Shown: piece by piece, positions 15,919 through 37,471 of the stretch
Layout of the letters: the number at the start of each line of letters is the position of its first letter
How positions within the stretch are numbered: position 1 is the stretch's first letter
Origin: an uncultured Pseudorhodobacter sp.
GTDB lineage: Bacteria; Pseudomonadota; Alphaproteobacteria; Rhodobacterales; Rhodobacteraceae
DNA length: 39,782 nucleotides
NCBI GenBank assembly: GCA_913062925.1
Contig: CAJXWJ010000031.1
Span: 1-39,782 of the forward strand
Direction of reading: 5' to 3'
Translations under genes and position numbers: made by a program
Notes under the pieces: generated by a model
Seen by the model: the letters and a program-made list of their open reading frames with translations, nothing else
The model's database searches: none
Told to the model about the DNA's origin: nothing

Positions 15919-15982
15919 TCGGGGGTTTCACACCCCCAGCGCCTGCGGCGCTCCCCCGTGGGATATTTAGGCCAAGATGAAA
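15919..15982 (+). repeat. Rhodobacterales-type palindromic intergenic element, copy 1
   Basis: The order is GGGGG-tttcaca-CCCCC (15921-15937), then AGCGCC-tgc-GGCGCT (15938-15952), then CCCCCGTGGGATATTT (15953-15968) and a tail ending AAGATGAAA. It lies between the stop of the AbrB-like gene and the stop of the convergent phosphatase and may end both transcripts. Five other copies are in this window. Confidence 0.75.
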
Positions 15983-22794: not shown

Positions 22795-22825
22795 GCAAAC
22801 CTTTCGGCGCGCGGCAGGGCAAGGA

Positions 22826-22861
22826 GCCTCCGGCGGGGATATTTTCACCAAGATGAAAGCG
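22826..22861 (+). repeat. Palindromic intergenic element, copy 2 (partial)
   Basis: GCCTCCGGCGGGGATATTTT followed by an AAGATGAAAGC tail. It matches copy 4 (31732-31785) closely, but the left hairpin arm is degenerate. It lies between the ABC ATPase stop and the phosphatase start, opposite to the direction of transcription. Confidence 0.7.
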
Positions 22862-27992: not shown

Positions 27993-30023
27993 TCACACAA
28001 AGCGGCGCGCGACCTCTTCGTCAAAATGGCGCTCAAAAATCAGCGCCTCGCCCTCATAGGCCTGCAACCGCGCCACCATGCGAAACGCCGTAGCGGTGGC
28101 AGTCATCTCTGCCCATGCCACTGTTTTCACAGACCAATCCCCGCGTGACAGCCTTTGCTCCCAACAGTGCTCGGCACGCGCGGACAAAGGATCATCGGGA
28201 TGGATCTGCCACAATTCCCGCATGGTCTCGCCACTACATAACCCATGTTTCAAATTTTCGACATCCCCTAGATCGTCATTTACGATCAAAGACACGGTTT
28301 TTCCGATCAGATCCTGCTCGATCCTGCGCGAGGTCTTGCCCGCCCGCAGCACCCGATGCGCCCAAGGCGCCGCCCCTTCCGCAGGCGGCGGCGCCCATTC
28401 CGGCCCCGATCCCGCATGCAGCGGCAGCTCTACTTGCCCCGATGTGATCCGCAACCGCCCCGCCTCGGGCGAAGGCCAAAGAAACGGCCAATAGCTGTTC
28501 GAAATCGCCAAACGCAGCCGATGCCCCGCGGCCAAACGATAGGCCATCTGGTCCAGCGCAAAGCCCACCTCCACCGCCTGATCCAGCGGCATTGGCTCGG
28601 GCAGCTCCATGCTGTTGCGATGACACAGGTTCAACATGCCATGCGCAATCCGGACTGAGCTGCCATCAGGCGCCACATCACAAAGCCGCGCCACCACAAA
28701 GCCCAAAGGCTTGTCACTCGCCAGCCGCAACCGCAGCTGCGCCGCCCCCAACAGATCCATCGGCTGCGCCAACACCGCGCCGTCAAAACAAACCGACATG
28801 GCATCCTCGCCCGCCTGATCCCCGGGCATCTCGGCATTCAAACCCATCGGAAAGAACTCGCCCGCCTGCAAGCCCAGATGCTGCGGCGTCGCCACCTCTA
28901 CCGCAAAGCCCGCTTCATCTGTCCCTAAATATCCCACGGGGGTCCGGGGGTGTGAAACCCCCGGCACCTGCGCAGGCATCGCCAAATGCAAAACCGCGCG
29001 CGACACCCGGGCCGAGGGCCACTCCGCCTCCACCACCCAATGCCCCGCCCGGGCGCGCGCCGAGGCATCGGGCGGCTGCGAATGCAGCATATAGGCGCGA
29101 TAGGCGCCATCGCCCTCGGCGCCATTCTCAATCCCCTTCAACCAGCGATCCCACCAGCGCAGCGCGCATTGCAAAAACCCAATCGCAGGCCCCGGCACGG
29201 CCGTGTGCGGGTATTGATGCACCCAAGGCCCGACAATCCCCTGCACGGGAGCAGGCACATTCTCGACCAAATGCGCCACGGTATTCATATAATTGTCCGC
29301 CCAACCGCCCCAAGACAGCACCGGCACCGTCATGCGCGCATAATCCTCGCTGACCGAGCCGTGCTTCCAATAGGCGTTCTTTTCCTGCATCGCCGCCCAG
29401 CGCGGCGCAAGCCAAGGCTCCGCCTCCAGCCGCGCCAGCCAATCCTCGCGCCAATCAGGCCGCAAAGCTGGGTCAGCCGGACGGCTGGAATAAGACAGCA
29501 TCACCGCCCCCCAGCCAAAATTCTCGCCCAGCAAACAGCCGCCCTTAAAGTGGATATCATCAGCAAACCGGTCCGTGGTCGAACAGACCGAAATCACCGC
29601 CTTCAACGCAGGCGGCTGCAAGAATGCGGTCTGCAAACAATTGAACCCGCCCCAGCTTTTGCCCATCATCCCCACCGCGCCCGAGCACCAGTCCTGCGCA
29701 GCCAGCCAAGCGATCACCTCACAGGCATCCGCCAATTCCTGCGGCGTATATTCATCCTGCATCAACCCTTCGCTGTCGCCGGTGCCGCGCATATCGACCC
29801 GCACACAAGCATAGCCATGCCCCGCCACATAGGCATGCATGATCTCGTCACGCGGCAAAGTGCCATCACGCTTGCGGTAGGGAATATATTCCAAAACCGC
29901 CGGAACCCTGCCCGCGCCCTCGGCCCGCCAGACCCGCGCCGACAGGCGGCAGCCATCCGACAACACAATCGCCAGATCTGGCTCTTCGATGATCTTGAAC
30001 GGAAACTCGCTGCGAACCTGCAT
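27993..30023 (-). CDS. CocE/NonD family hydrolase (S15 peptidase-type acyl esterase)
   Basis: A 676-aa serine hydrolase with an N-terminal alpha/beta domain (YIPYRKRDGT near 47, VDMRGTGDSEG near 76, nucleophile Ser in GKSWGGFN near 123, Asp in SWGGWADNY, His in GPWVHQYPH) and a C-terminal beta-sandwich. The family includes cocaine esterase and X-prolyl dipeptidyl peptidases. AGGAGG lies just before the ATG. Residues 354-370 (PGVSHPRTPVGYLGTDE) are encoded by a copy of the intergenic palindromic element read in frame, an in-gene insertion in the second half of the protein. The gene follows betC divergently and lies upstream of the ABC operon on the same strand, 133 nt away, so it may act on the imported compound. 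Substrate unknown. Confidence 0.88.
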   Translation of the reverse strand: MQVRSEFPFKIIEEPDLAIVLSDGCRLSARVWRAEGAGRVPAVLEYIPYRKRDGTLPRDEIMHAYVAGHGYACVRVDMRGTGDSEGLMQDEYTPQELADACEVIAWLAAQDWCSGAVGMMGKSWGGFNCLQTAFLQPPALKAVISVCSTTDRFADDIHFKGGCLLGENFGWGAVMLSYSSRPADPALRPDWREDWLARLEAEPWLAPRWAAMQEKNAYWKHGSVSEDYARMTVPVLSWGGWADNYMNTVAHLVENVPAPVQGIVGPWVHQYPHTAVPGPAIGFLQCALRWWDRWLKGIENGAEGDGAYRAYMLHSQPPDASARARAGHWVVEAEWPSARVSRAVLHLAMPAQVPGVSHPRTPVGYLGTDEAGFAVEVATPQHLGLQAGEFFPMGLNAEMPGDQAGEDAMSVCFDGAVLAQPMDLLGAAQLRLRLASDKPLGFVVARLCDVAPDGSSVRIAHGMLNLCHRNSMELPEPMPLDQAVEVGFALDQMAYRLAAGHRLRLAISNSYWPFLWPSPEAGRLRITSGQVELPLHAGSGPEWAPPPAEGAAPWAHRVLRAGKTSRRIEQDLIGKTVSLIVNDDLGDVENLKHGLCSGETMRELWQIHPDDPLSARAEHCWEQRLSRGDWSVKTVAWAEMTATATAFRMVARLQAYEGEALIFERHFDEEVARRFV
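28914..28964 (-). repeat. Palindromic intergenic element, copy 3, inside a coding sequence
   Basis: On the minus strand the order is CGGGGGTTTCACACCCCCG, then GACCCCCGTGGGATATTT, then AGGGACAGATGAA. This matches copy 1 (15919-15982) almost base for base but lacks its middle hairpin. The length is 51 nt, an exact multiple of three, with no stop in the hydrolase frame. Confidence 0.8.
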
Positions 30024-31731: not shown

Positions 31732-31785
31732 CGCTTTCATCTTGGCAAAAATATCCCCGCCGGAGGCCCCGCCTTGCCTCCGGCG
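31732..31785 (-). repeat. Palindromic intergenic element, copy 4
   Basis: On the minus strand CGCCGGAGGC, 7 nt, then GCCTCCGGCG is a 10-bp hairpin, followed by GGGATATTTTTGCC and AAGATGAAAGCG. It separates the convergent betC and betA genes and is a plausible bidirectional terminator. Confidence 0.75.
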
Positions 31786-37220: not shown

Positions 37221-37292
37221 ACGGGGGCCAGCCCCCGCGCTGCCTTGCTGCGCAAGCCAGCTTCCCCCGGGATATTTAGAGACAGATGAAAC
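37221..37292 (+). repeat. Palindromic intergenic element, copy 5
   Basis: GGGGGC-ca-GCCCCC (37223-37236), CTTG-ctgcg-CAAG (37244-37256), then CCCCCGGGATATTT and a tail GACAGATGAAA. It lies in the 294-nt gap (37186-37479) between the acyl-CoA dehydrogenase and the ligase, inverted relative to copy 6. That gap contains no gene. Confidence 0.75.
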
Positions 37293-37400
37293 ACAAGGGC
37301 GCCCCACCCCGACGAAACGGGGTAGGGTTTCACCTGTCACGGCCATCGGGGTCCCCCCCTGTTCCGTGAGATCAGAATCGCTCATTAAGGTTAACATTTC

Positions 37401-37471
37401 GTTTCATCTGTCCAAAAATATCCTCGGGGGGAGGCTTTGCTTGCAAAGCCGTGGGGGGCAGACAGCCCCCC
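37401..37471 (-). repeat. Palindromic intergenic element, copy 6
   Basis: On the minus strand: GGGGGGC-tgtct-GCCCCCC (37471-37453), GGCTTTGC-aa-GCAAAGCC (37450-37433), then CCCCCCGAGGATATTT and a tail GGACAGATGAAAC. It starts 8 nt past the acyl-CoA dehydrogenase stop and could end that transcript. Confidence 0.78.

Follow-up and report, generated by a model that had tools for sequence, protein, structure and literature searches.

The window considered here, the whole stretch of DNA that was analyzed, comprises positions 1 to 39,782 of contig CAJXWJ010000031.1 from an uncultured Pseudorhodobacter sp. (assembly GCA_913062925.1), and the feature of interest within it is a short palindromic repeat that lies inside, and is translated as part of, a gene for a CocE/NonD family hydrolase. 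The genome of origin (G000; completeness 99.9, 111 contigs) falls in the Cypionkella group, with Cypionkella aquatica and C. psychrotolerans. Two subtypes of the repeat core are common in host genomes, A (CCAAGATGAA) and B (RACAGATGAA).

A Palindromic Repeat within a Hydrolase Gene

The features at the locus are as follows.

27993..30023, minus strand: CocE/NonD family hydrolase, 676 amino acids (PF02129, PF08530, TIGR00976)
28913..28964, minus strand: in-gene palindromic repeat copy, one-hairpin form, core subtype B, encoding residues 354-370
28944..28964, minus strand: hairpin part CCGGGGG-TTTCACA-CCCCCGG of the in-gene copy
28935..28942, minus strand: second C tract CCCCC and linker GTG, the linker being complementary to CAC of the hairpin loop
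28913..28934, minus strand: conserved core GGATATTTAGGGACAGATGAAG of the in-gene copy

Read on the minus strand from 28964 to 28913, the segment is a full repeat copy of 52 bp (CCGGGGGTTTCACACCCCCGGACCCCCGTGGGATATTTAGGGACAGATGAAG) in which the hairpin is followed in turn by A, CCCCC, GTG, and the core; it is among the copies whose last base is other than A. Positions 28964-28914 encode residues 354-370 of the hydrolase (PGVSHPRTPVGYLGTDE), and the translation, stop-free over all 676 residues, bears out the in-frame reading proposed in the initial annotation. That annotation had also matched the segment to an intergenic repeat at 15919-15982. The first hairpin and the core are indeed common to both, with the copy at 15919-15982 differing by an extra hairpin (AGCGCCTGCGGCGCT) and by its tail (GGCCAAGATGAAA versus GGGACAGATGAAG in the hydrolase copy). 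Among the copies fetched from elsewhere in the same genome, the nearest (L010 and L019) are identical to the hydrolase copy at 48 of 50 aligned positions. With no more than one mismatch allowed, the core GGATATTTNNNNNNAGATGAAA occurs in approximately 119 copies (63 + 56) in the 3.15-Mb assembly, whereas a control search with the reversed pattern returned 0.

The Insertion among Homologous Hydrolases

Homologues of the hydrolase were drawn from 81 genomes, 58 of which had a match, and from a named genome collection, from which 80 of 295 loci encoding relatives were kept. A FastTree phylogeny was built from 86 homologues with the insert columns excluded, leaving out 11 duplicates and 13 more distant sequences (L051-L063), and visual scoring gave the element as present in 37, unclear in 7, and absent in 42. 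Between two flanking blocks, the loop is 35 residues long in the window gene and 25-57 residues long in the 37 homologues scored as element-bearing, as against 20-22 residues in 37 of the 42 element-free homologues. The insertion of 17 codons that had been proposed therefore stands as an in-frame gain that keeps the reading frame and lengthens the loop, but the net gain is approximately 13-15 codons rather than a clean 17. The likeness drawn in the initial annotation to the Rickettsia palindromic elements (RPEs), which enter protein genes, agrees with the shorter loop of the element-free homologues and with the position of the insert in a low-confidence loop between two strands, described below.

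The possibility that these residues are native to the enzyme and resemble the repeat only through coincidence or convergent codon usage draws on a G-x-L-G motif that is often present at the same place in the short loop of element-free genes, and that leaves the boundary of the insertion uncertain. Chance likeness is nonetheless exceedingly improbable in view of the 52 bp of hairpin and core, the near identity to copies elsewhere, and the abundance of the core relative to its reversed control, and it is already contradicted by the alignments, in which the element-free homologues are listed without such DNA at the site.

In the 86-gene tree, the insert-bearing hydrolases group into a single clade (support 0.966), and presence and absence map onto that tree with 3 changes, the minimum in 1000 shuffles being 17. 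This pattern fits one gain and two losses; in L081 and L105 the loop is again 20-21 residues long. Repeat DNA is recognizable at the hydrolase site in several genera, including Tabrizicola, Fuscovulum, Xinfangfangia, and Stagnihabitans, and the reading frame is identical in all 29 recognizable cores (duplicates removed). The insertion is thus neither recent nor unique; it is common to several genera and consistent with one gain. These observations also bear on recurrent independent insertion, according to which the hydrolase loop is a hotspot that has received its own copy in each lineage: a single clade of insert-bearing genes, a common frame of the kind expected from one event, and degenerate intermediates among the in-gene copies (L076, L087, and L096) all argue against it, and we consider it unlikely despite two points in its favor, the scatter of repeat subtypes in the hydrolase and the occupancy of another gene, xdhB, both taken up below.

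Other forms of the site were observed as well. In the hydrolases L067, L069, L065, and L068, from Cypionkella relatives, a GC-rich hairpin remnant persists without a recognizable core, possibly a sign of advanced decay. In L088, partial tandem duplication of the core (GGATATTTGGGAACA twice) results in a loop of 57 residues.

Placement of the Insert in the Protein

An AlphaFold2 model of the hydrolase (42 sequences) has a mean predicted local distance difference test score (pLDDT) of 93.3, and its sole segment below 50 is residues 353-359, in a loop between strands 340-348 and 363-367. The insert thus maps to a predicted loop. The corresponding model of the element-free homologue L100 (34 sequences, mean 93.9) has the matching strand at 342-350 and a strand at 364-366, with no segment below 50. 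The nearest solved folds in the PDB are cocaine esterases, with a template modeling (TM) score of 0.65 on the query. Residues S123, D243, and H269, which we take to be the catalytic triad from what is generally held of this family, are invariant in the 42-sequence alignment. Because the insert is predicted with low confidence between strands and the candidate triad residues are invariant, it is most likely a tolerated surface loop.

In-frame Copies in Other Genes

Copies inside genes were sought among 113 copies of the fetched stretches of G000 by applying a codon-bias model to both flanks, together with homologue alignments; the coding model was trained on 20 open reading frames (ORFs) of the window taken as genes, and the names ileS, xdhA, and xdhB were assigned from the protein sequences and their alignments. 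The open-frame test was passed by 6 of the 113 copies, and homologues support four: those in the hydrolase, in ileS (ASGGDIFAKMKA), in xdhB (ASGGDILAKMKA), and, in antisense, in xdhA (AFILAQISSEGSGEADSLP). In-frame insertion into several unrelated protein genes, a trait of RPE-type elements, is thus found here too. Across these genes the element is read as GVSHPRTPVGYLGTDE, as ASGGDIFAKMKA / ASGGDILAKMKA, or in antisense as AFILAQISSEGSGEADSLP, that is, in two sense phases and one antisense phase, so that the genes host a DNA element and no particular peptide is needed.

The distribution of these copies differs from gene to gene. Of 25 ileS homologues that cover the site, only the 2 from G000 and its sister genome G002 show the copy; the loop sequences of other species are different. 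In xdhA, recognizable one- or two-hairpin forms, some of them diverged, are found in ten genomes. In xdhB, seven genomes have the short GCCTCCGGCGG form in the loop, partly diverged, and G024 has another, the CCCCCAGAGTATTT type; these look like separate insertions at one loop and speak for recurrent insertion of the kind considered above for the hydrolase.

In G000, adjacent xdhA and xdhB genes (L240 and L270; G000:C1:40526-44262) each carry an in-frame copy, and with respect to the reading frame the two copies point in opposite directions.

Further candidates were set aside. L171 was not counted, as it has no spanning frame of at least 110 amino acids, nor was L202, where a 283-residue frame has no Pfam match. 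Neither the 33 copies of G008 nor the 42 of G006 identified with the strict pattern include a supported in-gene copy; the sole open candidate in G006, L375, likewise has no spanning frame of at least 110 amino acids. Peptide matches in other genomes (L334-L339) gave no evidence of a position within a gene: in L336 a CoA-transferase match starts only beyond the element, and Pfam gave no match for the long frames that span L335 and L337.

Apparent Turnover of the Inserted Repeat

Mapped onto the gene tree, core subtype requires 6 changes among 20 A and 8 B copies labeled partly by eye (shuffles 4-8, mean 7.15). When the labels are set by a regular expression the number is again 6, for 11 A and 8 B copies (shuffle mean 6.3), three of the 8 B copies being only B-like, with a AGAAAATG tail. 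Hairpin type changes 9 times in 21 genes (shuffles 6-13, mean 10.3; labels again partly by eye). Presence changes are few and changes in subtype and hairpin type lie near their shuffle means, so that the site is inherited, whereas the identity of its occupant, the copy that sits there, is distributed over the gene tree almost at random.

This distribution suggests that the occupant has been overwritten from the other repeats of the host. In the 24 genomes hosting in-gene copies for which exact A and B cores were tallied, wherever the host is nearly or wholly of a single type, in-gene copies of exact subtype agree with it in 5 of 5 cases, the in-gene copy itself being counted (A/B counts: 39/0 for L083, 49/1 for L096, 3/0 for L141, 0/22 for L102, and 0/26 for L135).

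Sister genomes offer a closer view. G000 and G002 share three of the four in-gene copies. The tails of the ileS and xdhA copies read CAAGATGAA in G000 and CAGTATGAA in G002, the same two positions differing in both genes, and in each case the tail is the one common in the genome of that copy. In G002, a CAGTATG tail is found in 23 of 28 cores (looser pattern; one of them is the xdhA copy) and no AGANGAA-type core was found; the G000 stretches were fetched by their AGATGAA tail, so that the lack of CAGTATGAA among them is not independent evidence. In the hydrolase, the window copy and the copy in the sister gene L134 are 63% identical (33/52), below the 76% and 80% of the two flanks, although the window copy agrees with copies elsewhere in its own genome at 48 of 50 positions.

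Among species of the same genus (G000, G001, G002, G009, G011, and G014), the 3' tail differs sharply, with CCAAGATGAA, CCAGTATG, GAGTTAGG, GAGCAAGG, and GCACAGAGG all represented, as if each genome homogenizes its own version.

These patterns are difficult to accommodate under vertical inheritance only, in which one ancient insertion has diverged unequally, likeness to the host is a retained ancestral form, and nothing has been overwritten. Such inheritance would account for presence mapping to one gain and for a CCGG-flanked hairpin common to in-gene copies as distant as L074, L103, L073, L072, and L085. It does not sit well with core subtype and hairpin type scattered almost as in shuffles, with orthologous ileS and xdhA copies that differ at the same two positions in the direction of their own genomes, or with an element less conserved between L134 and the window gene (L034) than its flanks, and we regard it as rather unlikely.

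We consider it quite probable, instead, that a repeat resembling the repetitive extragenic palindromic (REP) elements entered the CocE/NonD hydrolase gene, was kept in the clade, and in several lineages had its occupant replaced toward the repeats of the host. The segment 28913-28964 would then belong to a high-copy, REP-like family of palindromes in Rhodobacteraceae, and its entry into the gene, at a loop between two β strands, would most simply be a single event in the ancestor of the multi-genus clade. Alignment, tree, and model together indicate that the element keeps the frame, brings in no stop, and extends a loop that lies outside the well predicted fold, so that the protein probably tolerates it, the activity of the enzyme being presumably unaffected. 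The site would have stayed occupied through most of the clade, with the occupant replaced by a host-like version in several lineages, to judge from the distribution of subtypes. Replacement would most likely proceed by ectopic gene conversion between the in-gene and other copies, and less likely by re-insertion into an old copy; where it did not take place, the copy would decay, and two lineages have a short loop again.

Several observations weigh against this account, in addition to the G-x-L-G motif noted above. Diverged A-like copies remain in hosts that are mostly B (A/B counts of 1/33 for L072, 0/9 for L075, and 0/45 for L082). The hydrolase copy of G002 (L040) has neither of the two sister tails, reading AGAGAGGGT, as would also be expected from vertical inheritance, and the in-gene copies observed in G009, G011, and G014 are without the tail that dominates the listing of each genome. 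The window copy is close to in-gene copies of distant genera (L103, 49 of 52 positions; L074, 48 of 52), so that a retained ancestral form, with faster decay in the sister, could partly explain the likeness. The element peptide was not found as such in repeat-free genomes, 23 of the 24 hosts having an exact core A or B; the exception is G083 (host of L074), which has neither core, other tail types not having been searched for there, and yet its hydrolase carries the peptide. Finally, the account stands without a demonstrated conversion tract or target-site duplication. Because A-like copies stay in mostly-B hosts and the in-gene tails of G009, G011, and G014 differ from the dominant ones, overwriting is occasional rather than general, and many copies are relics.

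The Repeat Family in Its Own Genome

The window contains five further copies, listed below, which from the ORF list apparently lie between genes, although the copy at 22823 shares sequence with the beginning of a frame on that list.

15919..15982, plus strand: two-hairpin copy, core subtype A, outside gene
22823..22858, plus strand: short GCCTCCGGCGG-form copy, core subtype A
31735..31770, minus strand: short GCCTCCGGCGG-form copy, core subtype A
37264..37291, plus strand: copy with core subtype B, hairpins upstream
37402..37429, minus strand: copy with core subtype B, in opposite orientation to the copy at 37264..37291

The last two form a pair of oppositely oriented copies approximately 108 nt apart (37264-37429). 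Elsewhere in the genome, the short GCCTCCGGCGG form and its relatives occur as head-to-head dimers (L150, L153, L160, L197, and L200), which resemble composite REP arrangements.

The family has several properties of REPs: it is high in copy number, short, hairpin-forming, and located mostly outside genes near their 3' ends, with only the 4 supported in-gene copies among the 113 tested in G000. On the 5' flank, the coding direction is toward the element in 68 copies and away from it in 22 (113 copies, G000), with corresponding values of 17 and 7 in each of two relatives (33 copies, G008; 42 copies, G006). The elements thus favor positions downstream of genes, in the same orientation as the gene.

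Other expected signatures of known families were not found. Rfam at the gathering threshold gave no match within the window. The GTAG/CGTC tag is absent from the 3' ends (20 nt) of the 113 copies (GTAG 0, CTAC 0, CGTC 2, GACG 2; control stretches 200 nt downstream: GTAG 3, CGTC 3, GACG 6), and in the 35 nt on the 5' side, taken without a matched control, the counts of GACG 12, CGTC 6, and GTAG 5 are far from those of a common tag. The REP-associated tyrosine transposase (RAYT; Y1_Tnp, PF01797) has 0 matches in G000, while 5 of 14 control genomes match. With respect to miniature inverted-repeat transposable elements (MITEs), no clean empty-site junction was found, the insertion sites being variable loops, and the search for a parent transposon covered RAYT.

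Structure of the Element

The repeat copies are related, so that the following counts are not of independent events. The G run and the second C run are equal in length in 71 of 85 copies (permutation mean 32.7, maximum 46). Among 20 distinct loop-linker pairs there are 17 in which the linker, lying ahead of the core, matches the reverse complement of a stretch of the hairpin loop (mean 10.4, maximum 16). A later set of 39 copies, taken with a somewhat looser core filter, has equal run lengths in 33 (mean 23.3, maximum 32) and weaker loop-linker pairing, at 10 of the 16 distinct pairs (7.1 on average under permutation, p 0.02). Over all 122 copies, pairing is found in 24 of 33 distinct pairs (mean 15.6, maximum 22). 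Of 48 copies in a class chosen for a 3-nt linker and a 7-nt loop of one pattern, 45 make all three Watson-Crick pairs, spanning six loop variants (CAC/GTG, TGC/GCA, CGC/GCG). Loop-linker complementarity and matched tract lengths suggest an H-type pseudoknot. The hairpin energy predicted by minimum-free-energy folding is not unusual for the composition (z about -1); because this energy alone does not set the element apart, the structural argument rests on covariation. A triple helix involving the second C tract is speculation: symmetry between the G arm and the second C tract in 82 copies gave 33 ties, 27 mirror, and 22 direct, with informative interrupted tracts in few copies only (L208, L226, and L240).

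One more base pair in the stem, with a matching second C tract, adds 3 nt by arithmetic, and therefore variants that differ in stem length but share a loop type keep the reading frame. Such variants are found in frame in the hydrolase (GVSHPRTPV and GGFTPPGPPV). A broader and tentative proposal, which we think possible rather than probable, is that protein genes of Rhodobacteraceae contain long-lived docking sites for a structured mobile repeat, whose copies are updated to the repeats of the host by ongoing copying or conversion. The element would act as an H-type pseudoknot of RNA or single-stranded DNA, perhaps with a triple helix of the G arm, the C arm, and the equal-length second C tract, and would be recognized by the copying machinery; stem changes of one base pair would alter three tracts at once, by +/-3 nt, in frame.

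Relationship to Known Systems

Small repeats within bacterial genes have been described in several systems. RPEs are palindromic repeats that sit in frame within unrelated protein genes and also occur outside genes (PMC10969869, PMC3733652). The Rhodobacteraceae repeat is likewise found in frame in unrelated genes as well as outside genes, but it is approximately 36-70 bp long, its phase or orientation varies by gene, and its occupants have apparently been replaced over genus-level time.

GTAG/CGTC REPs are small palindromes, mostly intergenic near 3' ends and frequently dimers, with some located within ORFs, including those of tRNA synthetases, and with different REPs at approximately the same site in recB of X. 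campestris and X. oryzae (PMC3733652). The main text of that paper makes no mention of Rhodobacter, Paracoccus, or Roseobacter. The repeat considered here is similarly a small palindrome found mostly outside genes, with in-gene cases that include the tRNA synthetase gene ileS; unlike those REPs, it has neither 3' tag, and its own genome has no RAYT. Enterobacterial RU-type repeats, MITE-like units of 103-168 bp (PMC2759123), provide a further parallel in that they are intergenic units carrying ORFs that are also found within annotated genes. By analogy, the Rhodobacteraceae element appears to work like an RPE or an intragenic REP, and membership in those families is not claimed. Among the matches listed from the open-access literature on palindromic and repeat elements of Rhodobacter, Rhodobacteraceae, and Alphaproteobacteria, none described this repeat family.

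A family and a bacterial group are added to the known cases of repeats turned into protein sequence. The hydrolase provides a natural time series, in which an apparent single insertion can be traced through several genera along with its loss, its decay, and its apparent overwriting. In-gene and outside copies with species-specific tails allow one to ask whether small palindromes of bacteria homogenize by gene conversion or spread by transposition. In comparison with these systems, palindromic repeats within genes are already known, and their apparent turnover in place is the newer part.
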